From Yinghuangia soli (GTDB lineage: Bacteria; Actinomycetota; Actinomycetes; Streptomycetales; Streptomycetaceae), in contig NZ_JAKFHA010000043.1 in the NCBI RefSeq assembly GCF_021502675.1, positions 1 through 64,000 on the forward strand: 64,000 nucleotides of DNA. Direction: 5' to 3'. The notes beneath the pieces were generated by a model. The model worked only from the letters and a program-made list of their open reading frames with translations. It did no database searches and had not been told where the DNA came from. Each line of letters begins with the position of its first letter. Positions within the stretch are counted from its first letter, which is position 1. The position numbers and the translations under genes were made by a program. Of the stretch, positions 53-41,168 are shown one piece after another.

Positions 53-1744
53 TCAGGCCAGGCCGACCAGGCCGGGCACCTCTGGCCTGGAGAGCCATGT
101 GAAGCCGATGAGGCGTCCTTCGCTGAGCATCCAGATCGCCGAGTCGGCGGCGTCGAGCAGGGCCCTCCCGTCGACCGCCCGGGCGCCGAGCGACGAGCCG
201 TCCTCGTGCTTGAAGGCCATCAGCTGCCCGGGCGCCCCGGGGAGGCCGGTGCCGAGGACGAGGACGCCGGAGGCGTCGGTGCCGACGATTTCGATGTCCG
301 CGACGTCCTTGCCCATCGGCATGCTCCACCGGGCTTTCCCGGTACCGAGGTCGAAGGCGACGAGCCGGACGATTTCGCCGAGCTTCTGATCGCGCCGTTC
401 GGTCTTGATGTAGAGGGTGTTCTTGGCGACCGCGACCGAGTAGTAGGGCGCGCTGTCGAAGTCGGAATTGTAGGGCGCGCTGCGCATGTCCCTGGGGTCG
501 GTCATGCCGTCCGGACCGTGGCTGGGGATTTCCGCGCGGAGCTTCCCGTCGCGGTCGTAGGACTGGAGTATGTAGTCGCCGCCGCGGGCGATTTCGACGA
601 CCACCGGGTCGGCGTGCACGAGGTTCAGCCAGGCGTATCCGTCGTCGGCCGGCGGAATGCTCTTGGACCAGCGGCGGCTGCCGTCGGCGGCGTCGATCGC
701 TATCAGGTTGGCGGGTGATTGCTTTTCGTACGAGGACTGCTCGACGAGGACGGTTCCGCCTTCCACGCGCAGCCCGTCGACGCCTTCGTCGTCGGACGAA
801 GTGGGCGACCAGTCCCAGCGTTTGGCGCCGTCCTTGAGGTTGAAGGCGCTGAGTCCGGTGCTGGTGGAGATCACCGCGATGTCGCCGTCGACGGCGGTCT
901 GGACGCGCCGGAATTTGTCGTCGGAGTTGGCCACGTCTTTGCTTTTGCGCTCCCATGCGGAGCGCATGGTGGCGAGGTCGATGGCGACGGTCATGTCGCA
1001 TTTTCCGGCCGGTCCGTAGGCGGCTATGCCGATGCCTTGGGAGGCTTTGGTGGCCATGCCGCAGAACTCGCCGGTGGGCGGGGTGAATCTGCCGGCTTCG
1101 CGGCCGTCGGCGATGTCGTAGGCGGTGATCGCTTTGGCGTCGCCGGTGATGACGCGCTGTCCGGAGGTCCAGGCGCCGAGGGTCTCGACGCGGCCGTCGC
1201 CGGGCGGGGTCTTCCAGGCGTGCTTCATGGTCTTGCCGTCGGTGACGGGGCTGCCGCCGTCGCCGCCGTCGTCCTTGAGGGCGAATTGCCAGACCAGGAT
1301 GCCGCCGGCGACGAGGACGAGGGCGACCACGGCGGCGACGGCGGCCACGAAGCGGCGCGATGCGGCGCGTCCCGGGGCGCGGGGTATCGGCGGGGTGCCG
1401 TGTGCGGGTTGGCCGTATGGCGGGCTGCCTCCCATGGGCGGCATGCCGACCGGGCTGCCGGGGCCGACCGGGCCGCCCATCCCTCCGGAGCCGGGCGGCG
1501 GGCTGCTGCCCGGCAGGCTGCCCGGGAAGGGCGCGCCCGGCGGTGTGGTCGGTGCCGCGGGCGGTCCGGGCGGTGGCGGTACGCCGGGGAGGCTGGGGCT
1601 GGGCGGTCCGGGCTGCCAGGGCGGTACGCCGTCCCCGCCGGCCCCCGCGCCGGTGGGTCCGAGGGGTTCTCCGGGTGGCGGCCCTGACGGCGGCCCCGGT
1701 GGCGGACCTGGTGGCGGACCGTAGGGTCCGGGCGGTTGCGACAT
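53..1744 (-). CDS. Membrane-anchored PQQ-like beta-propeller protein
   Basis: A 563-residue protein with three parts. Residues 1-130 are extremely Pro/Gly-rich (repeated PPGPP units) and should be cytoplasmic and disordered. Residues 131-152 form one hydrophobic transmembrane helix. The remaining 400 residues read as an extracellular PQQ-enzyme-like beta-propeller, with repeated blades of the type 'aiDaaDGsrrWs' and 'afDLgtGkaRWs'. No enzymatic residues were recognised. Such proteins in actinobacteria are usually of unknown function, and binding or scaffolding outside the membrane is an inference. The ATG at 1744 begins MSQPPGPYGP. The gene lies downstream of the helicase gene on the same strand with a 123-bp gap, so it may have its own promoter. 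Family call fairly secure, role unknown. Confidence 0.8.
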   Translation of the reverse strand: MSQPPGPYGPPPGPPPGPPSGPPPGEPLGPTGAGAGGDGVPPWQPGPPSPSLPGVPPPPGPPAAPTTPPGAPFPGSLPGSSPPPGSGGMGGPVGPGSPVGMPPMGGSPPYGQPAHGTPPIPRAPGRAASRRFVAAVAAVVALVLVAGGILVWQFALKDDGGDGGSPVTDGKTMKHAWKTPPGDGRVETLGAWTSGQRVITGDAKAITAYDIADGREAGRFTPPTGEFCGMATKASQGIGIAAYGPAGKCDMTVAIDLATMRSAWERKSKDVANSDDKFRRVQTAVDGDIAVISTSTGLSAFNLKDGAKRWDWSPTSSDDEGVDGLRVEGGTVLVEQSSYEKQSPANLIAIDAADGSRRWSKSIPPADDGYAWLNLVHADPVVVEIARGGDYILQSYDRDGKLRAEIPSHGPDGMTDPRDMRSAPYNSDFDSAPYYSVAVAKNTLYIKTERRDQKLGEIVRLVAFDLGTGKARWSMPMGKDVADIEIVGTDASGVLVLGTGLPGAPGQLMAFKHEDGSSLGARAVDGRALLDAADSAIWMLSEGRLIGFTWLSRPEVPGLVGLA

Positions 1745-30710: not shown

Positions 30711-31727
30711 ATGAGACAGGGCGGCACAGCGCCGGTTCCCCGGGGCGGCGGGCAGATCCGGCGTACCCGGACGATCGTCGCGCTGGCACTCGCGCTCGCG
30801 CTCGCGCTGTTCGCCGGCGGGCTGTGGATCAGCTCGGACGACGCGGCGCCGTACCGCGGCGGGCCGATCTCGATCGCGGCCGGGGTGCGCAGCGGCGTCT
30901 ACTTCAAGTACGGCGAGCTGCTGGCCCCGCGGCTCACCGAGGACCTGGGCGCGCCGGTCCGCGTGGACGAGAGCAGCGGTTCGGTGGACAACCTGGCCCG
31001 GATCGGCGACGGCCGGAACACGCTGGGCATAGCGACGGCCGACTCGGTCGCGAACCTCGACCCGGCGAAGCGGGCCGAGCTGCGCGCGGTCGCGCGGTTG
31101 TACGACGACTACGTGCAGTTGGTCGTGCCGGCGTCGTCGGGCATCCGGTCGCTGGAGGACCTGAAGGGCAAGCGCGTGGTGATCGGCCCTCCGCAGTCGG
31201 GTGTGGAGCTGATCACGCGGCGCATCCTGGCGACCGCCGAGATGGACGCGGACCGCGACATCGTGCCGGTGCGGCTGGGCATCGGCGACGCCACGAAGGA
31301 GCTGGGCGCCGGGAACGTGGACGCGTTCTTCTGGTCCGGCGGGCTGCCGACCGAGGCGGTGTGGCAGCTGGCCCGGAGCATGAAGCTGCGGTTCGTGCCG
31401 CTGGGCGAGGTGGCCACCAAGCTGCGGGCGAAGTACGGGCATGTGTACCGCGAGGCGGTGATCCCGGCCGACGCGTACCCCGGGCTGGACGGGCGCCGCG
31501 ATGCGACCGTGCCGACGATCGCGGTGCCGAACCTCCTGGTGACCCGGGCGGATGCGGACACCGGGCTGATCCGGCAGGTCACCGGCACGGTGATGGGCGA
31601 GCGGGAGTCGATCGGGGCGCAGGTGCACGCCGCCCAGTTGGTGGATCCGCGGACCGCGATCTTCACGGACCCTCCGCTGAAGCTGCACGAAGGTGCCCGG
31701 CTCTGGTACAGATCGGCGAAACCGTGA
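30711..31727 (+). CDS. TAXI-family substrate-binding protein (orphan)
   Basis: A 338-residue protein with a basic N-terminus and one hydrophobic segment (residues 20-40). It lacks a lipobox cysteine, so it is either a cleaved secreted protein or membrane-tethered. The mature part matches TRAP-associated extracytoplasmic immunogenic (TAXI) binding proteins: [60 protein letters not shown]. Such proteins bind glutamate/glutamine or other carboxylates and normally work with a DctQM-type permease, none of which is in the window. ATG 30711 after AAGGG. Located next to the glutamate-sensing locus. Confidence 0.87.
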
Positions 31728-31803
31728 TGCGTCCGACGTCGCGCGTAGACCGGTAAATGCAAGATGCTGGGGGCCTGACCCTCCGGCGAGTGCGCGGCAC
31801 TCC

Positions 31804-31825
31804 TACACTCTGACCTCCTGTCAGA
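31804..31825 (+). promoter_or_regulatory. Possible promoter with overlapping palindrome before the kinase gene
   Basis: TACACT (31804-31809) is a plausible -10 element, followed by TCTGAC-CTCCT-GTCAGA, an inverted repeat with six-base arms (31809-31825). It lies about 40 bases before the GTG of the kinase-binding protein fusion. Confidence 0.35.
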
Positions 31826-31863
31826 AGTCGGAGCACACTCCCGGAGCACCCTGGGAGGAGGGC

Positions 31864-34056
31864 GTGACCGCAGTGTCCGAAGGCGATGTCGGCCGTGTGC
31901 TGAACCAGCGGTACCGCCTGAGCCGCAGCCTGGGCCGCGGCGGTATGGGCGAGGTCTGGTTGGCCGTCGACACCGCGTTGGGCCGCGAGGTCGCGGTCAA
32001 GGAACTCCTGCTGCCGGCTTCCCTGGACGAGGCCGCGCAGCGGTCCTGGCTGGAGCGCAGCAAGCGCGAGGCCACTGCCGCCGCCCGGATCCGGCACGAG
32101 AACGTGGTCACCGTCCACGACGTGTTCGAAGAGGACGGGCGCCCGTGGATCGTCATGGAGCTGGTGATCTCCCGCTCGCTGTCCGAAGTGGTGCGCACCG
32201 AAGGCCGGCTCGAGTACGCGGAGGCCGCGCGCATCGGGCTCGACGTGCTGCGGGCGCTGCGCGCCGCGCACGCGAAGGGTGTGCTGCACCGCGATGTGAA
32301 GCCCGCGAACGTGCTGCTGGGCTTCGACGGCCGGGTGGTGCTCACCGACTTCGGCATCGCGACGTTCGTGGACGCCCCGCAGGTGACGCATGTCGGGGAG
32401 CTGCTGGGCACGCCCGGGTATCTGGCGCCGGAGCGGGCCGAGCGGTTCGCCACCGGCGGTGTGCCGGTCGAGGGCCGGCGCGGCGGGGCGGTCTGCGAGG
32501 CGGACGAGTGCGACCCGGAGGCGTGCGACGCGGACGGCCGGGAGGCCGGCGCCGAGACCGCGGTGGCCGGCGGGGGCGTGCGGACGTCGGACGAGACGCT
32601 GGGCATGAGCGGTACGACGCTGCTGGACCCGGCGTCCGACCTGTGGTCGCTGGGCGCCACGCTGTACGAGATGGTCGAGGGCCGTCCGCCGTTCATCCGG
32701 GCCTCGCCGGTCGAGGTCGTGGACGCCGTGGTCAACCACGCGCCCGCGCCGCCGCGCCATGCCGGTGCGCTGGAGCCGGTGGTGATGGGCCTGCTGCGGA
32801 AGGACCCGGCGGAGCGGCTGGACGCCAAGGAGGCCGAGGAGCTGCTGGTCCGGGTGATCCAGGACGCGCTGCCGCGCACCTGGGGCGGCGAGATGCTCCC
32901 GGCGCAGCGGCCGCCGTCCGCGGGCGAGACCGCGGGGCCGGGCGCGTACCGGGCAGGGCTCGGCAGCGGGCACACCGCGACGCACCGCAGTGTGCCGGGC
33001 GGTTCGGGAACGCGGGCGGGCGAAGCGGCGGCGGAGCTGGGCGTCCATGCCGCGGACGAGCCGGTGGAGCCGACGTGGGCCGGCGAGCTTCCGGACGATG
33101 CGGAAGCGGCGGTCGTCCTCGGCGGGCCCGCGGGCGATGCGCCGGATCCGGCCCCGGGGCGGTGGACGCGCCGCCGGAAGCTGCAGGTGATCGTGCCCGC
33201 GGTGCTCGCGCTCGTGCTGGTCGCGACGTCGCTGGTGCTGCTGAAGGCGGTCGGCTCGGACGGCAAGGGCAGCGACCGGCTGGCGCAGTTGCGGGCCCGG
33301 TCGGCGACGTACCAGGCGATGGTGCAGCGCGGCTACATGATCGTCGGGGTGAAGCCGGACCAGCCCGGGGTGAGCCAGAAGGGCGCCGACGGGCAGTACA
33401 CGGGCTTCGACGACGACATCGCGCGGATGATTGCGGCGGATCTCGGGTTCGCCGGGAAGATCCGCTTCGTGGACGTCGAGACGCAGGGCCGCGAATACCG
33501 GATAGCGAGCGGCCAGGTCGACCTCGTGGTGGCGAGTTACACGATAAATCCGGAGCGGCTGCAGCGGGTTTCGTTCGCCGGCCCGTACTACGTGGCGGGG
33601 CAGGACTTCCTGGTCCGCAAGGACGACCCGGGTGCGGCGCGCCCGGAGGACCTGGCGGGCAGCCGGGTGTGCGTGGTCCGCGAGTCGACGTCCGCGGCGC
33701 GGGTGCGGCAGAAGTTCCCGACCATGCAGGTCGAGGAGCGCGGCAAGTATTCGGAGTGCGTCGACGAGCTGCTCAAGCGCAATGTGCGCGGGGTGAGCAC
33801 CGACGACACCATCCTGGCCGGGTTCGTGGCCCGGCATCCGGCCGAACTTCGGGTGCTGGGCAGCCCGTTCTCGGACGAGCCGTACGGTGTGGGGCTCAGC
33901 CGCGGCGATGCGGCGCTGGCCGGTGCGGTGTGCGATGCGCTGAACCGGCACATCGCCAACGGCGACTGGCAGCGGGCCTACGACGGGACGCTCGGCACGC
34001 TCGGTCTGCTGCCGCCGCGGCCGCCCAAGTGCGTACCGCACGTGCCGTCCGAGTAG
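31864..34056 (+). CDS. Transmembrane Ser/Thr protein kinase fused to an extracellular GluB-like amino-acid-binding domain
   Basis: A 730-residue receptor kinase. Residues 15-335 are a Hanks-type kinase: GRGGMGEVW (24-32), Lys46 in VAVKEL, HRDVKPAN (142-149), DFG (162-164), APE (188-190). A 60-residue insert follows APE and contains CEADECDPEAC (Cys211, 216, 221). Residues 340-435 are a low-complexity juxtamembrane region, 439-461 a single transmembrane helix. Residues 487-730 are a complete solute-binding protein domain closely resembling the GluB encoded 3.4 kb downstream (shared GFDxDIARMI, FAGPYYVxGQ, LVRKDD, TDDxIL). External glutamate or a similar ligand should control internal kinase activity. 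GTG 31864 sits after GGAGGAGG. Next to gluK-gluR-gluABCD. Confidence 0.93.
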   Translation: MTAVSEGDVGRVLNQRYRLSRSLGRGGMGEVWLAVDTALGREVAVKELLLPASLDEAAQRSWLERSKREATAAARIRHENVVTVHDVFEEDGRPWIVMELVISRSLSEVVRTEGRLEYAEAARIGLDVLRALRAAHAKGVLHRDVKPANVLLGFDGRVVLTDFGIATFVDAPQVTHVGELLGTPGYLAPERAERFATGGVPVEGRRGGAVCEADECDPEACDADGREAGAETAVAGGGVRTSDETLGMSGTTLLDPASDLWSLGATLYEMVEGRPPFIRASPVEVVDAVVNHAPAPPRHAGALEPVVMGLLRKDPAERLDAKEAEELLVRVIQDALPRTWGGEMLPAQRPPSAGETAGPGAYRAGLGSGHTATHRSVPGGSGTRAGEAAAELGVHAADEPVEPTWAGELPDDAEAAVVLGGPAGDAPDPAPGRWTRRRKLQVIVPAVLALVLVATSLVLLKAVGSDGKGSDRLAQLRARSATYQAMVQRGYMIVGVKPDQPGVSQKGADGQYTGFDDDIARMIAADLGFAGKIRFVDVETQGREYRIASGQVDLVVASYTINPERLQRVSFAGPYYVAGQDFLVRKDDPGAARPEDLAGSRVCVVRESTSAARVRQKFPTMQVEERGKYSECVDELLKRNVRGVSTDDTILAGFVARHPAELRVLGSPFSDEPYGVGLSRGDAALAGAVCDALNRHIANGDWQRAYDGTLGTLGLLPPRPPKCVPHVPSE

Positions 34057-34131: not shown

Positions 34132-35574
34132 TCAGAGGGCGCGGTCGACGGTGACCGTGACGACCAGTCCCCCGCCGTCGCGCGCCGAGAAGTCGATGCT
34201 GCCGCCGGTGGCCCGCAGGAGTGTGCGGGCGATGGACAGGCCCAGCCCGGAGCCGTCCACGTTCTGATGGTGCTGGCTGCGCCAGAACCGGTCCCCGACG
34301 CGCCGGAGTTCGGCCGGTTCGAGGCCGGGGCCGCGGTCCGCGACGCGGATCTCCAGGACGCCGCCGACGGCCGCGAGGGCGACGGCGACCTCGCCGTCGT
34401 CGGGGCTGAACTTGAGGGCGTTGTCGAGGATCGCGTCCAGTGCGCTGCCCAGCGCGATCGGGTCGACCTGGCCGGTGAGGGCGCGCGGGCCCTGCTGGTC
34501 GAAGTGCTGGCCGCGGGAGCGGGCCACCGGCTCCCAGGCGTCGATGCGCTCGCGGACCAGGGCGGCGACGTCGAGCGGGACGCGGTCGGCGGCGCCGCCC
34601 GCGGCGTTGGCGGCGTTCTCGGCCAGGGCCAGGGCGAGCAGTTCGTCGAGGACGTGGGTGAGGCGCCGGCCTTCGTCGCGTACGCCGTCGAGGGTCGCCT
34701 GGTGCTCGGGCGGCAGGCTGAGGCCGAGCTCCTCGATGCGCAGCAGGAGGGCCGAGAGCGGGTTGCGGAGCTGGTGCGAGGCGTCCGCGGAGAAGGCCCG
34801 CTGCTGTTCGACGACGGTCTCCACGTGGTCGGCCATCTCGTTGAACGCCTTGGCCAGGCGCCGCAGTTCGGGCGGTCCCTGGGCGGCTGCCACGCGGGCG
34901 CCCAGGCGGCCGGTGGCGATCTCGTGGGTGGCCTTGTCGAGGACCTGGACGGGCCGCAGGATGGTGCCGGTCAGGCGGCCGGCCGCGAGCAGCGCGACGA
35001 CCAGCGCGACGGCCTCGGCGGCGCCCAGGAAGAGCCAGGCGTCGGTGGTGCGGCCGCGCATCTTGGCGGTGTCCGAGTCGGTGATCGCGACGGCGACGAC
35101 GTCGCCGCGGTGCACGACGGGGACCGCGACCACGATGCGGCGGTCCTGCCAAGGCCACACCAGCGGGGGGTCGTCGCTGCGCCGCCCGGCCAGCGCGGCG
35201 TCGAAGGCGGCCTTGGCCTGCCCGTCGGAGGGCAGGGTGTAGACGGCGTCGGAGGCCAGCATGGTGCGGCGCTGCCGGTCCAGGATGGCGGCGTGGATGC
35301 CGTACGTGTCCTCGTACTGCTCCAGGTAGCCGCGGAGTTCGGCGCGGTTGATGCGGTCGGTCTCGGTCTGCGCCGGGGTCTCCGCGGAGATCTCCAGGTC
35401 GTCGCGGACCATGCTGCTCTGGAAGTCGGCGGCGAAGGCGGCGGTGTCGTCGGCCCGGTCCCGGGCGGTCTCCTGCTGGTAGCCGGCCGCCTGGGAGAGG
35501 GCCAGCGGGATGCCGAGGGCCAGCAGTACGGCCACCATGAGGGCGAGCAGCAGGGCCAGGAGTCGGGTGCGCAC
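34132..35574 (-). CDS. gluK: Sensor histidine kinase GluK
   Basis: A 480-residue membrane sensor kinase: transmembrane helix 1 (about 5-26), extracellular sensor region 27-177, helix 2 (178-200), HAMP, then HisKA with phospho-acceptor His267 in ADASHQLRNP, and an HATPase domain with the G1 box VADRGPGL and SGLGLSIAR. From memory, the S. coelicolor pair beside gluABCD is GluR-GluK, which senses extracellular glutamate/glutamine and controls the transporter; position and orientation agree. GTG 35574; the upstream regulator gene ends 13 bases before it, so they form one operon. Convergent with the kinase-fusion gene. Confidence 0.88.
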   Translation of the reverse strand: MRTRLLALLLALMVAVLLALGIPLALSQAAGYQQETARDRADDTAAFAADFQSSMVRDDLEISAETPAQTETDRINRAELRGYLEQYEDTYGIHAAILDRQRRTMLASDAVYTLPSDGQAKAAFDAALAGRRSDDPPLVWPWQDRRIVVAVPVVHRGDVVAVAITDSDTAKMRGRTTDAWLFLGAAEAVALVVALLAAGRLTGTILRPVQVLDKATHEIATGRLGARVAAAQGPPELRRLAKAFNEMADHVETVVEQQRAFSADASHQLRNPLSALLLRIEELGLSLPPEHQATLDGVRDEGRRLTHVLDELLALALAENAANAAGGAADRVPLDVAALVRERIDAWEPVARSRGQHFDQQGPRALTGQVDPIALGSALDAILDNALKFSPDDGEVAVALAAVGGVLEIRVADRGPGLEPAELRRVGDRFWRSQHHQNVDGSGLGLSIARTLLRATGGSIDFSARDGGGLVVTVTVDRAL

Positions 35575-35587
35575 GTGCGGGGACCGG

Positions 35588-36334
35588 TCAGGCGTCCGGG
35601 ACGATGCGGTAGCCGACGCCGCGGACGGTCTCGACGATGCGGGGGTTGCCCAGCTTGGCGCGCAGCGAGGCGACGTGGACTTCGAGGGTGCGGCCGCTGC
35701 CGGCCCAGCTGGTCCGCCACACCTCGCTCATGATCTGCTCGCGCCGGAAGACCACGCCGGGGCGCTGGGCGAGCAGCGCGAGCAGGTCGAATTCCTTGCG
35801 GGTGAGGACCACCTCGGTGCCGTGCACGGTGACCCGGCGGGCGGCGCCGTCCACGACCACGGTGCCGACCGCGAGCGGGCCGGGGCCGGGCGCGGGGGCG
35901 GCGGGCTGGGGTGCCGCGGCGGTGACGGCCGGGTCCGGGGCGGCGGCGGGGGCCTGGGGGCGGTCCGGGCGGGCGTCGGAGCGGCCCCGGCGGCTGACCG
36001 CGTGGATGCGGGCGAGGAGCTCGGCGATGTCGTACGGCTTGGTCACGTAGTCGTCGGCGCCCAGGTTGAGGCCGTGCACGCGGGACCGGACGTCGGCGCG
36101 CGCGGTGACCATGATGACCGGCACATCGCTGATGCGGCGTATTCGGGCGCAGACCTCGAAGCCGTCGTGGTCCGGCAGGTTGAGGTCCAGGAGCACCACG
36201 TCGACGTCGGCGGTCAGCGCGTCCAAGGCTTCCTCGCCGGTGCAGGCGTGCCGGACGTCCATGCCGTGCCGGCCGAGGACCGCGCGCAGCGGGGCGGCGA
36301 TGCGCAGGTCGTCTTCGACCATCAGCAGCTGCAT
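35588..36334 (-). CDS. gluR: OmpR-family response regulator GluR
   Basis: A 248-residue regulator. The receiver domain has acidic residues VEDD (6-9), phospho-acceptor Asp50 in LLDLNLP and Lys99 in VTKP. A Pro/Ala-rich linker of about 45 residues, longer than usual, leads to a winged-helix DNA-binding domain (VVLTRKEFDLLALL, VRGVGYRI). ATG 36334 follows GGAGGA. It is divergent from gluA across 205 bp, where its target site should lie. Confidence 0.88.
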   Translation of the reverse strand: MQLLMVEDDLRIAAPLRAVLGRHGMDVRHACTGEEALDALTADVDVVLLDLNLPDHDGFEVCARIRRISDVPVIMVTARADVRSRVHGLNLGADDYVTKPYDIAELLARIHAVSRRGRSDARPDRPQAPAAAPDPAVTAAAPQPAAPAPGPGPLAVGTVVVDGAARRVTVHGTEVVLTRKEFDLLALLAQRPGVVFRREQIMSEVWRTSWAGSGRTLEVHVASLRAKLGNPRIVETVRGVGYRIVPDA

Positions 36335-36448
36335 GGCGTGTCCTCCTCCGGGCTGGTTCCGGGCGGGCGGGTCGTGAACCGGGTCATCTAAGCAGACAGT
36401 CCAGATTCTGCCGAGGACGCACGACACACAACCCTCCGTTATCCGGTC

Positions 36449-36468
36449 TTGACCTCAGGTGAAGCTCA
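36449..36468. promoter_or_regulatory. Possible GluR site and -35 element upstream of gluA
   Basis: TTGACC (36449-36454) resembles a -35 hexamer. CTCA occurs at 36454 and again at 36465, an 11-base spacing typical of OmpR-family tandem half-sites. No clear -10 was found, so this is tentative. Confidence 0.3.
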
Positions 36469-36539
36469 AATCCGGCCCGATCCGCGGTTCTTGCCCGCTT
36501 ACATATGCCCACCACACGATCCGGAGGAGCGAAGCCACC

Positions 36540-37322
36540 GTGACCGAAGCCCTGGACAAGACACCGTCCCTGGAGAAAGAGGACGCCGTACCTCTGGTGG
36601 TCCTGTCGAAGGTCAACAAGCACTTCGGCGCGCTGCACGTCCTCCAGGACATCGACCTGACGATCACGCAGGGCGAGGTCGTCGTCGTCATCGGCCCCTC
36701 CGGGTCGGGCAAGTCGACGCTGTGCCGCACGATCAACCGGCTGGAGCCGATCGACTCCGGGTCGATCACCATCGACGGCCGCGCGCTGCCGCAGGAGGGC
36801 CGTGCGCTGGCCCGGCTGCGGTCGGACGTCGGCATGGTGTTCCAGTCGTTCAACCTGTTCGCGCACAAGACGGTGCTGCAGAACGTGATGCTCGGCCCGG
36901 TCAAGGTGCGCCGCGAGACGCGCCAGGCGGCCGAGCTGCGGGCCCGGCAGCTGCTGGACCGGGTCGGCGTGGGCAACCAGGCCGACAAGTACCCGGCGCA
37001 GCTGTCCGGCGGCCAGCAGCAGCGTGTGGCGATCGCCCGGGCGCTGGCCATGCAGCCCAAGGTGATGCTGTTCGACGAGCCGACCTCGGCGCTCGACCCC
37101 GAGATGGTCAACGAGGTGCTGGAGACCATGCGGTCGCTGGCCGCGGACGGCATGACCATGGTCGTCGTGACGCACGAGATGGGCTTCGCCCGCTCGGCGG
37201 CCAACCGCGTGATCTTCATGGCGGACGGCCGGATCGTCGAGGAGAACACCCCCGACGAGTTCTTCGGCAACCCGCGCAGCGACCGCGCCCGCGACTTCCT
37301 GTCGAAGATCCTGCACCACTGA
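36540..37322 (+). CDS. gluA: Glutamate ABC transporter ATP-binding protein GluA
   Basis: A 260-residue ABC ATPase of the polar amino acid uptake class. Walker [11 protein letters not shown]-loop VFQSFNLF, signature [10 protein letters not shown], Walker [13 protein letters not shown] and H-loop THEMGFA are all intact. GTG 36540 (VTEALDK) follows GGAGGAG by about 12 bases. It energises uptake with GluC and GluD. First gene of gluABCD. Confidence 0.95.
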
Positions 37323-37361: not shown

Positions 37362-37428
37362 GGCGGCCGGACGCCGTGCCCGGGGCCGCCCGCTTGCCCG
37401 TACCTGAAACCACCAAGGAGTGAGGGTC

Positions 37429-38316
37429 ATGAAGATCCGCAAGACCATAGCCGTCGCCGGCGTCGCCGCCCTGGCCCTGCTCGGCACCGCTTGTGGCAAG
37501 GACGACAAGTCGAGCGACGCGGGCAAGGCCCCGTCGTACGAGGTCAACGACAAGTTCTCGATGCCGGACTCGAAGACCTGGAAGGCCGCGAAGGACCGCG
37601 GCCACCTGATCGTCGGCGCCAAGGAAGACCAGCCGTTCCTGGGCTTCATGGACCCGGCCACCAAGGAGCGTTCCGGCTTCGACATCGAGATGGCCCGGAT
37701 GATCTCGGCCGAGCTGGGCCTGGACCCGAAGAAGATCGAGTTCAAGACCATCGCGTCGGCGAACCGCGAGACCGCGCTGCAGAAGGGCGACGTGGACATC
37801 TACGTCGGCACCTACAGCATCACCGACAAGCGCAAGGAGTCGGTCGGCTTCGCGGGTCCGTACTACATCTCGGGCCAGAGCCTGCTGGTGAAGAAGGACA
37901 ACACCGCGATCACCGGCAAGGACACGATCGCGAACAAGAAGGTCTGCTCGGCCAAGGGCTCGACCCCGGCCCAGAAGATCACCAAGGACTTCCCGACCAC
38001 CACGCTGGTCGAGTACGACACGTACAGCCTGTGCGTGGACAACCTGCTGAGCGGCCAGGTCGACGCGGTCACCACCGACGAGGCGATCCTCAAGGGCTAC
38101 GCGGCCAAGGACCCGAAGAACCTCAAGGTCGTCGGCGAGAACTTCTCCACCGAGAAGTACGGCATCGGCGTCTCCAAGGACGACGCGCAGCTCCGCGAGG
38201 CGGTCAACAAGATCCTCGAGGAGAGCAACAAGGAAGGCGTCTGGAAGAACATCTACGACGCCACCCTGGGCCTGTCCGGAGCGCGGCCCCGGGCCGCCCC
38301 GCGGGTCGCGCGCTAG
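37429..38316 (+). CDS. gluB: Glutamate-binding lipoprotein GluB
   Basis: A 295-residue solute-binding lipoprotein: signal peptide with lipobox LGTAC, then a family 3 amino-acid-binding domain (GAKEDQPFLGF, GFDIEMARMISAELG, FAGPYYISGQ, CVDNLL, TTDEAIL). ATG 37429 has AAGGAG eight bases upstream. Captures extracellular glutamate for GluC/GluD/GluA. Near-identical leader and signal peptide to the second copy at 40248. Confidence 0.95.
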   Translation: MKIRKTIAVAGVAALALLGTACGKDDKSSDAGKAPSYEVNDKFSMPDSKTWKAAKDRGHLIVGAKEDQPFLGFMDPATKERSGFDIEMARMISAELGLDPKKIEFKTIASANRETALQKGDVDIYVGTYSITDKRKESVGFAGPYYISGQSLLVKKDNTAITGKDTIANKKVCSAKGSTPAQKITKDFPTTTLVEYDTYSLCVDNLLSGQVDAVTTDEAILKGYAAKDPKNLKVVGENFSTEKYGIGVSKDDAQLREAVNKILEESNKEGVWKNIYDATLGLSGARPRAAPRVAR

Positions 38317-38368: not shown

Positions 38369-38479
38369 CCCCGGACCACGTCTCCACGTCCGATCCAGAC
38401 CTGCGGGGATCACCGTGAACACATGCCCTGACGCCGCCCGCACGGCGGGCCTGCCCTCGGGCCGGAAGGCGGGTGCGCG

Positions 38480-39124
38480 ATGAGCGTGCTCCGCGACAAC
38501 TGGGACCTGATCCACAAGGGCTTCGTCGAGACGCTCTGGCTCACCCTGTGGTGCGGCGTCGTGGCGCTCGTGCTGGGGACGCTCCTGGCCGCCTGCCGGG
38601 TCTCGCCGGTGCCGCCGCTGCGCTGGTTCGGCACCGCGTACGTCAACATCATCCGCAACACGCCGCTGACGCTGCTGATGTTCTTCGTCGCGCTCGGGTT
38701 CCCCAAGCTCGACATCAAGTTCGACTACTTCACCTTCGCGGTGATCGCGGTCGGCGGCTACACCGCCGCGTTCATCTGCGAGGCGGTCCGCTCCGGCATC
38801 AACACGGTGCCGCTGGGCCAGGCCGAGGCGGCCCGCAGCCTGGGCATGACGTTCGGCCAGACGCTGTCGCTGGTCGTGCTGCCGCAGGCGCTGCGCGCCG
38901 TCATCCCGCCGATCGGCTCGCTGCTGATCGCGATGGTCCGCAACTCGGCGATCGCCGGTGCGTTCAACGTCGACGAACTGTTCGGCGTGAACTCCACGCT
39001 GGTCGAGAACGGCGAGAACGTCCTGTGGGTGTTCCTGTGGATCGCGGTCGGCTACCTGACGATCACGCTCACCCTGAGCGCGGTGTTCGCGCTGCTGGAG
39101 AAGAAGCTGGCGGTGGCCCGATGA
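38480..39124 (+). CDS. gluC: Glutamate ABC transporter permease GluC
   Basis: A 214-residue permease with about five hydrophobic helices. It carries the amino-acid permease EAA loop GQAEAARSLGMTFGQTL. ATG 38480 follows GGGTGCGCG, a weak ribosome binding site. Its last four bases overlap gluD (ATGA), so the two permease subunits are translationally coupled. Confidence 0.94.
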   Translation: MSVLRDNWDLIHKGFVETLWLTLWCGVVALVLGTLLAACRVSPVPPLRWFGTAYVNIIRNTPLTLLMFFVALGFPKLDIKFDYFTFAVIAVGGYTAAFICEAVRSGINTVPLGQAEAARSLGMTFGQTLSLVVLPQALRAVIPPIGSLLIAMVRNSAIAGAFNVDELFGVNSTLVENGENVLWVFLWIAVGYLTITLTLSAVFALLEKKLAVAR

Positions 39125-40026
39125 GCCAGAAAGCCACTGTCCTGTTCGACGCCCCGGGGCCCAGGGCCCGGCGCCGGAACACGATCATCGGGGTCGTCGG
39201 GATCGCGCTGCTGATCGGCGCACTCGCGTACGTGGTCTACAAGTTCGACAAGACCGGGCAGTTCGAGTCGCGCAAGTGGGAGCCGTTCCAGTACACCGGC
39301 ATCCAGGAGCTGATCCTCGACGGCCTGTACGCCACCCTCAAGGCGTTCGCGCTCGCGGTGGTGTTCTCGCTGATCCTCGGCGCGCTGCTGGCCGCCGGGC
39401 GGCTGTCCGAGCACCGCGTGCTGCGCTGGGCGGCGACCGCGTTCGTCACGTTCTTCCGGGCGATGCCGCTGGTCATCATGATCTTCTTCCTGTACGTGGC
39501 GCCCGCCAAGCTCGACGCCTGGCCCGGGTTCCTCGACTGGATCGGCGACGACGTCATGTGGCCGCTGGTCATCGGCCTGACGCTGTACAACGGCACGGTG
39601 CAGGCCGAGACGATGCGCGCCGGCATCCTCGCGGTCCCGAGCGGGCAGAGCGAGGCGGCGTACGCGATCGGCATGCGCAAGACGCAGGTCATGACCGTGA
39701 TCCTGCTGCCGCAGGGCATCCGCGCGATGCTGCCGTCGATCATCAGCCAGATGGTGGTGACCCTCAAGGACACCTCGCTGGGCTTCCTCATCACGTACGG
39801 CGAACTCCTGTACACCGCCAAGCAGATCGGTGCGGTGCAGGACTACGGCCTGCCGCTGATCCCGGCGGCGATCGTGATCGGCACCATCTACATCCTGATC
39901 TGCACGCTGCTGTCGCTGTTCGCGGTGTGGCTGGAGCGGTTCCTCAGCAGCAGCCGGCAGGGCAAGCCGCCGGCCATCGCGGCGCCCGGCGACGGGGAGC
40001 TGCAGCAGGCGGGTGCAACTGCCTGA
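39121..40026 (+). CDS. gluD: Glutamate ABC transporter permease GluD
   Basis: A 301-residue permease. One N-terminal helix (about 20-40) precedes an extracellular loop, then the permease domain with EAA loop GQSEAAYAIGMRKTQVM. A short hydrophilic C-terminal tail is Ala/Gln-rich. ATG 39121 overlaps the gluC stop. Pairs with GluC in the membrane. Confidence 0.94.
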   Translation: MSQKATVLFDAPGPRARRRNTIIGVVGIALLIGALAYVVYKFDKTGQFESRKWEPFQYTGIQELILDGLYATLKAFALAVVFSLILGALLAAGRLSEHRVLRWAATAFVTFFRAMPLVIMIFFLYVAPAKLDAWPGFLDWIGDDVMWPLVIGLTLYNGTVQAETMRAGILAVPSGQSEAAYAIGMRKTQVMTVILLPQGIRAMLPSIISQMVVTLKDTSLGFLITYGELLYTAKQIGAVQDYGLPLIPAAIVIGTIYILICTLLSLFAVWLERFLSSSRQGKPPAIAAPGDGELQQAGATA

Positions 40027-40247: not shown

Positions 40248-41168
40248 ATGAGACTGCGCAAGGCCATAGCCGTCGCCGGCATCGCCGCCCTGGCCCTGCT
40301 CGGCACGGCCTGCGGCCGGGACGACAAGCCCGGCGGCACGCCGCCGCCGACCGGCGCGCCGCCCGCGGCGCCGTCGCTGCCGGTGTACACCGCGAAGGCG
40401 GGTGTGGACCTGTCCGCGTCGCCGACCTGGGCGAAGGCCAAGGAGCGCGGCCACCTGATCGTGGGGGCGAAGGACGACCAGCCGTTCCTGGGCTATCTGG
40501 ACCGCGCGACGCTGGCGCGTTCCGGCTTCGACATCGAGATCGCCCGCATGGTGTCCGCCGAACTGGGCCTGGACCCGGCGAAGATCGAGTTCAGCACCGT
40601 CCCGTCGTCGGGGCGCGAGACCGCGATCCAGAACGGCGACGTGGACATGTACGTCGGCACATACAGCATCACCGAGCAGCGCAAGAAGCTGGTGGCGTTC
40701 GCCGGGCCGTACTACGTCTCCGGGCAGAGCTTCCTGGTGCGCAAGGACGAACAGGCCATCACCGGCAAGGACACGATCCGCGGCAAGCGGGTGTGTTCGG
40801 CGAAGGGGTCCACCGCATTCCAGCGCCTGCAGGTGGATTTCCCCGAGACGCAGGCGGTCTTCCAGGACGACTACAGCAACTGCGTGGAGCATCTGCTGGC
40901 CGGGCAGGTCGACGCGGTCTCCACGGACGAGGCGATCCTCAAGGGCTATGCGGCCAAGGACCCGGGCCGGCTCAAGGTGGTCGGGCAGCCGTTCACCACG
41001 GAGAACTACGGCATCGGACTCCCGCAGCAGGACCCGGTGTTCCGCACCGCGGTGAACGACGCCATCGAGGCGAGCATCGCCAACGGCAACTGGAAGGCGG
41101 CGTACGACGCGACGCTGGGCCTGTCCGGTGCGCCGGCGCCGCAGACCCCCAAGGTCGAGCGCGGCTGA
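40248..41168 (+). CDS. Second GluB-like binding lipoprotein (orphan paralogue)
   Basis: A 306-residue lipoprotein very close to GluB over its whole length (signal peptide MRLRKAIAVAGIAALALLGTAC, GAKDDQPFLGY, GFDIEIARMVSAELGLDP, FAGPYYVSGQ, STDEAILKGYAAKDP). The leader region before it (CACCAAGGAGTAGGGGTC) also resembles that of gluB, showing a segmental duplication. It has a longer Pro/Gly/Thr-rich linker after the lipid anchor and no permease of its own. It could feed GluCD/GluA with another ligand or present ligand to the receptor kinase. Confidence 0.92.
   Translation: MRLRKAIAVAGIAALALLGTACGRDDKPGGTPPPTGAPPAAPSLPVYTAKAGVDLSASPTWAKAKERGHLIVGAKDDQPFLGYLDRATLARSGFDIEIARMVSAELGLDPAKIEFSTVPSSGRETAIQNGDVDMYVGTYSITEQRKKLVAFAGPYYVSGQSFLVRKDEQAITGKDTIRGKRVCSAKGSTAFQRLQVDFPETQAVFQDDYSNCVEHLLAGQVDAVSTDEAILKGYAAKDPGRLKVVGQPFTTENYGIGLPQQDPVFRTAVNDAIEASIANGNWKAAYDATLGLSGAPAPQTPKVERG

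Follow-up and report, generated by a model that had tools for sequence, protein, structure and literature searches.

A kinase-SBP fusion with a predicted acidic amino acid pocket at the glu locus of Yinghuangia soli and related Streptomycetaceae

In a window of 64,000 nucleotides from Yinghuangia soli (contig NZ_JAKFHA010000043.1, positions 1 to 64,000), we found a gene for a single-chain receptor kinase, in which a Hanks-type Ser/Thr kinase is joined through one transmembrane helix to a solute-binding protein (SBP) domain. The protein is probably a receptor for an acidic amino acid, in which closure of the SBP trap by extracellular glutamate or aspartate would switch the kinase. The architecture itself was known before: Bhattacharyya et al. 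(2018, mBio; PMC6069109) named MSMEG_1200 (StpK7) and about 260 further "SBP kinases" in InterPro, and StpK7/MSMEG_1200 has its own NCBIfam entry (NF052427). The claim of an earlier, sequence-only reading of this DNA, that no system with such an arrangement had been described, is thus too strong. What is new is the predicted glutamate-type pocket and the conserved coupling to gluKR-gluABCD; no description of a kinase-SBP gene at the glu locus was found in the open-access papers searched, nor any report for this clade that a bound solute controls the kinase.

The frame is uninterrupted from 31864 to 34056 on the forward strand and translates into 730 amino acids. Its G+C contents at the three codon positions (0.76/0.52/0.91) mark it as coding, and by the same measure the long antisense open reading frames (31663-34041, reverse strand) are an artefact of high G+C content. 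Since the fusion is kept in at least 17 genomes, a frameshift or assembly join between the kinase and the SBP domain was ruled out. We consider it practically certain that 31864-34056 is a real gene encoding one intact kinase-TM-SBP protein. A comparison of six loci showed that the GTG codon at 31864 is missing from the Embleya homologues and shifted in another genome (G002), so the conserved start is probably GTG 31873 (codon 4) rather than GTG 31864. In the interval upstream, 31728-31863, Yinghuangia and Embleya share conserved blocks, which include ATGCTGGG as well as a box resembling TAnnnT that precedes CTCTGA. The kinase-SBP gene may have its own promoter within this interval.

The predicted cytoplasmic kinase domain (residues ~16-335; 31909..32868, forward strand) matched Pfam Pkinase (PF00069) at 3.5e-43, with 148.3 bits against a cut-off of 31.7. 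In an alignment of 15 homologues, the motifs GRGGMG, VAVK, the alphaC glutamate, HRDVKP.N, DFG, APE and DLW were invariant or nearly so, and with the Pfam score above the cut-off and the catalytic motifs intact, the domain belongs to the Hanks-type Ser/Thr kinases. A lineage-variable insert occupies residues ~196-252. The kinase is followed by a variable, proline-rich juxtamembrane linker that aligns with many gaps (residues 336-437; 32869..33174, forward strand) and then by the sole strong hydrophobic stretch of the protein (residues 439-461; 33178..33246, forward strand), in which the best 19-residue window (442-460) has a mean hydropathy of 2.88. Because RRRK precedes this single stretch, the kinase is predicted to lie inside and the SBP domain outside the membrane. 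The latter (residues 487-730; 33322..34053, forward strand) matched SBP_bac_3 at 5.8e-24 over residues 493-707, and its AF2 model (pLDDT 93) showed a complete Venus-flytrap fold. A model of the full-length protein, built on an alignment of five sequences, had a pLDDT of 43.6 and was not used; it drew the helix at 437-464. The intact kinase motifs, the one helix at 439-461 and a complete binding domain with limits 487-730 had all been read from the DNA alone, and each agrees with these results; kinase, helix and SBP stand in this order in one frame, so ligand capture and kinase are indeed parts of one chain. The protein has seven cysteines, of which those at 603, 632, 690 and 723 belong to the SBP domain and show little or no variation among the aligned homologues; the remaining three are in the lineage-specific kinase insert.

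The receptor gene lies between a gene for a TAXI-family solute-binding protein and a complete glu locus. The TAXI protein (30711..31727, forward strand; TIGR02122 at 1.5e-65, PF16868) has an N-terminal membrane anchor. Downstream on the reverse strand are a GluK-like sensor histidine kinase (34132..35574; HAMP, HisKA and HATPase_c domains, assigned also by synteny) and a GluR-like OmpR-family response regulator (35588..36427; Response_reg and Trans_reg_C). They are followed on the forward strand by the ABC ATPase gene gluA (36459..37322; ABC_tran), by gluB, encoding an SBP_bac_3 lipoprotein with the lipobox LLGTAC at its N terminus (37420..38316), and by the permease genes gluC (38480..39124; BPD_transp_1) and gluD (39121..40026, start approximate; BPD_transp_1 in the open reading frame 38473-40026). 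A third SBP_bac_3 gene, a paralogue of gluB, directly follows gluD at 40248-41168, as it does in G002.

To survey the fusion, 61 relatives and 81 genomes of the family were searched with single-protein queries and the loci were then read; the counts of presence and absence cover the matches listed, and weak matches were not scored as absences. The kinase-SBP fusion was found at the glu locus in at least 17 genomes from seven genera of Streptomycetaceae, including Yinghuangia and Embleya. The gene order was the same in 17 of 17, with the TAXI-type binding protein, the kinase-SBP gene, the oppositely oriented gluK and gluR and then gluABCD, and miaB lay upstream of the TAXI gene wherever the stretch extended that far. 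The linkage to gluKR-gluABCD proposed from the single locus is therefore conserved. In seven other genomes of the same family the kinase gene was absent and the TAXI gene was directly followed by gluK, and one genome of another family (G245) had TAXI, gluK, gluR and gluABCD together without the kinase. Together these loci are a clean case of presence or absence of one single gene at the same locus (17 with, 8 without). In one genome (L053 11630-14652), an MFS transporter gene and one further, unassigned frame lay between the kinase-SBP gene and gluK.

In the family sample, among the matches listed, the fusion occurred in all genomes of groups g1 (3 of 3), g4 (four), g8 (two) and g11 (three), in the single genomes of g10 and g12, in 3 of 14 genomes of g6 and in none of g14. 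Group g9, which makes up most of the order sample, had at least four fusions, every one of them away from the glu locus; our guess is that g9 is Streptomyces-like and g14 Kitasatospora-like, and genomes of these two types have the glu locus minus just the kinase gene. In most Streptomyces gluKR-gluABCD is present but the kinase gene is not, so the receptor is dispensable for the control of glutamate uptake. The TAXI protein was considered as part of a TRAP transporter and rejected, as a search for the TRAP permease DctM gave no match anywhere in the genome. Because its gene is next to gluK also in loci that lack the kinase, the TAXI protein may instead serve the GluK system as a sensor component. 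Five further loci with long SBP frames (L114, L116-L118 and L123) had no kinase domain by Pfam and were not counted as fusions. The plasmid collection yielded kinases only, with no record in which one place covered 80% of the query, and a phylum-level search showed no further fusion among the matches listed.

The trees placed the kinase halves of 21 fusions in one clade (support 98/96) and the SBP halves of the same 21 in one clade (support 97). This main clade includes four members away from the glu locus. Since both halves gave the same clade, its members descend from one fusion that was inherited whole. The sequence-only reading had seen a close resemblance between the SBP domain and the GluB whose gene lies 3.4 kb away. 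The two do share the SBP_bac_3 family, but their identity is about 39-41% and the fusion SBPs form a clade of their own apart from GluB, so the likeness was overstated.

Purifying selection acts on both domains: dN/dS was about 0.06-0.12 in the kinase core, where dN is well below dS, and 0.16-0.32 in the SBP domain, compared with about 0.4-0.65 in the linker. It could be argued that the SBP domain is vestigial or purely structural and that the kinase is either always active or governed by a different signal, as might be expected from a long, poorly conserved linker and a gene missing from most Streptomyces. However, the dN/dS of the SBP domain, its conserved pocket residues and the one-piece inheritance across seven genera speak against such a domain, and we regard it as very improbable.

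The structure prediction that had been suggested for the SBP domain pointed to acidic amino acids. Among solved structures, the model came nearest to 5EYF, which holds glutamate (Z 31.9, rmsd 1.7), and to GlnH in complex with aspartate or glutamate (Z 31.1); the two count as tied because rows within Z 1 were treated as equal. The best sequence match in the PDB was also GlnH of M. tuberculosis (6e-33), the aspartate/glutamate sensor of PknG (PMC6069109). When the GlnH contacts reported in PMC6069109 were taken as pocket positions, they mapped onto R543, A557, S558, T560, R565, Y629 and D647 of the receptor. The residues for an alpha-amino acid (T560, R565 and D647) and for a side-chain carboxylate (R543) are all present, as the proposal of an acidic amino acid pocket implied. 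Of the 17 fusions at the glu locus, 16 had the pocket string RAS(T/S)RYTD and one had RATSRYTD; the corresponding strings were RATTRYTD in 5EYF, RGTSRYTD in GluB of the glu locus, RKTSRWTD in GlnH and ISSTRQAD in StpK7. The side-chain arginine, the alpha-group residues and the aspartate were conserved throughout the main clade. From these residues, the pocket is predicted to be of the type of acidic amino acid binders, with glutamate and perhaps aspartate as the ligand. None of the outcomes that the sequence-only reading had named as refuting it came about: there was no join between the domains, the ligand pocket was present and related genomes had the fusion.

On the other hand, the SBP domain may bind a different ligand, such as glutamine, an opine-like compound or a cell-wall-derived compound, and the neighbourhood would then mislead on the signal. 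K161 and W232 of GlnH are replaced by Ala and Tyr in the receptor, and StpK7 has a different pocket in the same architecture, both of which would fit such a ligand. Against it, the acid-specific arginine was found in 21 of 21 main-clade members and the pocket equals that of the glutamate-bound crystal structure (5EYF) at seven of eight positions, which makes a different ligand improbable. Because of the two replacements, the pocket does not give a rank order of ligands. Compared with GlnH of M. tuberculosis, the pocket has its Ser/Thr positions exchanged, a feature shared with C. glutamicum GlnH, which binds its ligands more weakly (PMC9769921); by this analogy, a low ligand affinity of the receptor is possible.

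For a receptor of an acidic amino acid, the mechanism may be pictured as follows. The C-terminal Venus flytrap outside the membrane would bind glutamate, perhaps aspartate, and its closure would be transmitted to the cytoplasmic kinase at the N terminus by way of the one helix and a short segment next to the membrane. For PknB-like kinases, trans-phosphorylation in a dimer is accepted. In the simplest case, the two chains of a dimer would pack differently once the trap has closed, and their kinases would trans-phosphorylate each other. Once active, the kinase would tune the uptake of glutamate or carbon/nitrogen metabolism, alongside GluK-GluR. The sequence-only reading had named GluR, the transporter and central carbon/nitrogen enzymes as candidate targets; we consider it unlikely that the kinase acts on GluR, GluK or the transporter. 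It is also unlikely that the Ser/Thr kinase and the histidine kinase jointly read one extracellular amino acid at one locus, in which case GluR or GluK or the transporter would be cross-phosphorylated and the orphan TAXI protein might supply a further input. It was also considered that the tethered SBP domain docks on the GluCD permease, so that the kinase would read occupancy or flux and perhaps phosphorylate the transporter. The constant linkage to gluABCD would be consistent with such a transport-coupled sensor, and its N-terminal membrane anchor gives the SBP domain the geometry of lipid-anchored GluB; since the transporter genes are a full gluABCD set that includes a GluB, and some clade members lie away from the glu genes, we consider it unlikely.

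StpK7 is the closest described architecture, with a Hanks kinase, one transmembrane helix and SBP_bac_3 in one chain (by Pfam, in two mycobacterial-type copies above the NCBIfam cut-off). It differs from the receptor in that the kinase domains are 40% and the SBP domains 26% identical, and an isoleucine stands where the receptor has the acid-binding arginine. The receptor scored 177.7 bits against the NF052427 cut-off of 900, with its strongest matching segment confined to the kinase domain, and a common kinase-domain clade of the two was rejected in a quick tree (p-AU 0.0096). With the cut-off missed, the clade rejected and the pocket different, the receptor belongs to the broad SBP-kinase kind and not to the StpK7 family.

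In mycobacteria and corynebacteria, an SBP_bac_3 protein for acidic amino acids likewise feeds a Ser/Thr kinase in the GlnH-GlnX-PknG system (PMC6069109, PMC9769921); there, however, the three are separate proteins, and PknG has TPR and rubredoxin domains and no transmembrane helix. Pfam found neither domain in the receptor, which is thus not PknG. The comparison with PknG made from the sequence was apt, given that GlnH is the best PDB match and that the genome carries a PknG of its own, with TPR and rubredoxin domains (L062 4697-11263) and an SBP_bac_3 gene upstream; we assign these two to a GlnH-PknG route. Since the genome also has PknG, the receptor adds to this route and does not replace it. 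In S. coelicolor, GluK reportedly binds glutamate and controls gluABCD (PMC9739842). GluK-GluR shares the locus and the presumed ligand with the receptor, but it is a two-component His-Asp system, and no Ser/Thr kinase stands there in the Streptomyces-like loci examined. The PASTA kinases PknB/Stk1 have the same order of N-terminal cytoplasmic kinase, one transmembrane helix and C-terminal outside sensor, and a similar kinase fold; the receptor has a Venus flytrap in place of the PASTA repeats, for which no match was found in it (NF033483, 238.9 bits against a cut-off of 450). The Venus kinase receptors of invertebrates, one of which is activated by L-arginine, also join a Venus flytrap through one transmembrane helix to a kinase (PMC2680970), but their kinase is a tyrosine kinase near the insulin receptor and their flytrap is GABA-B-like, so that the likeness is presumably convergent and an analogy only.

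With sensor and kinase joined in a single polypeptide, a ligand predicted from the pocket and a pathway named by the neighbouring genes, an experiment from ligand to kinase is feasible with one purified protein, and relatives with the same locus minus the kinase gene offer a natural comparison.

Kinase-SBP fusions also occurred outside the main clade, as second copies in Embleya, as one in G007 and as three in family f19. The SBP tree speaks against a single origin of all fusions, as it requires four or more changes of state; the kinase tree, which included few outgroup kinases, did not reject a single clade of all fusions (p-AU 0.076). SBP domains and kinases thus appear to have been joined repeatedly and independently, which suggests that many actinobacteria use Ser/Thr kinases to sense extracellular amino acids. 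Further fusions of apparently separate origin are at L097 8633-11746, L103 8840-11596, L093 9305-11188 and L120-L122. Some of them have altered pockets, such as Asp-Leu-Thr or Gly-Ser-Leu, which suggests other ligands. One record titled Streptomyces sp. SID3343 (L031) grouped with Embleya in both trees and is probably misnamed.
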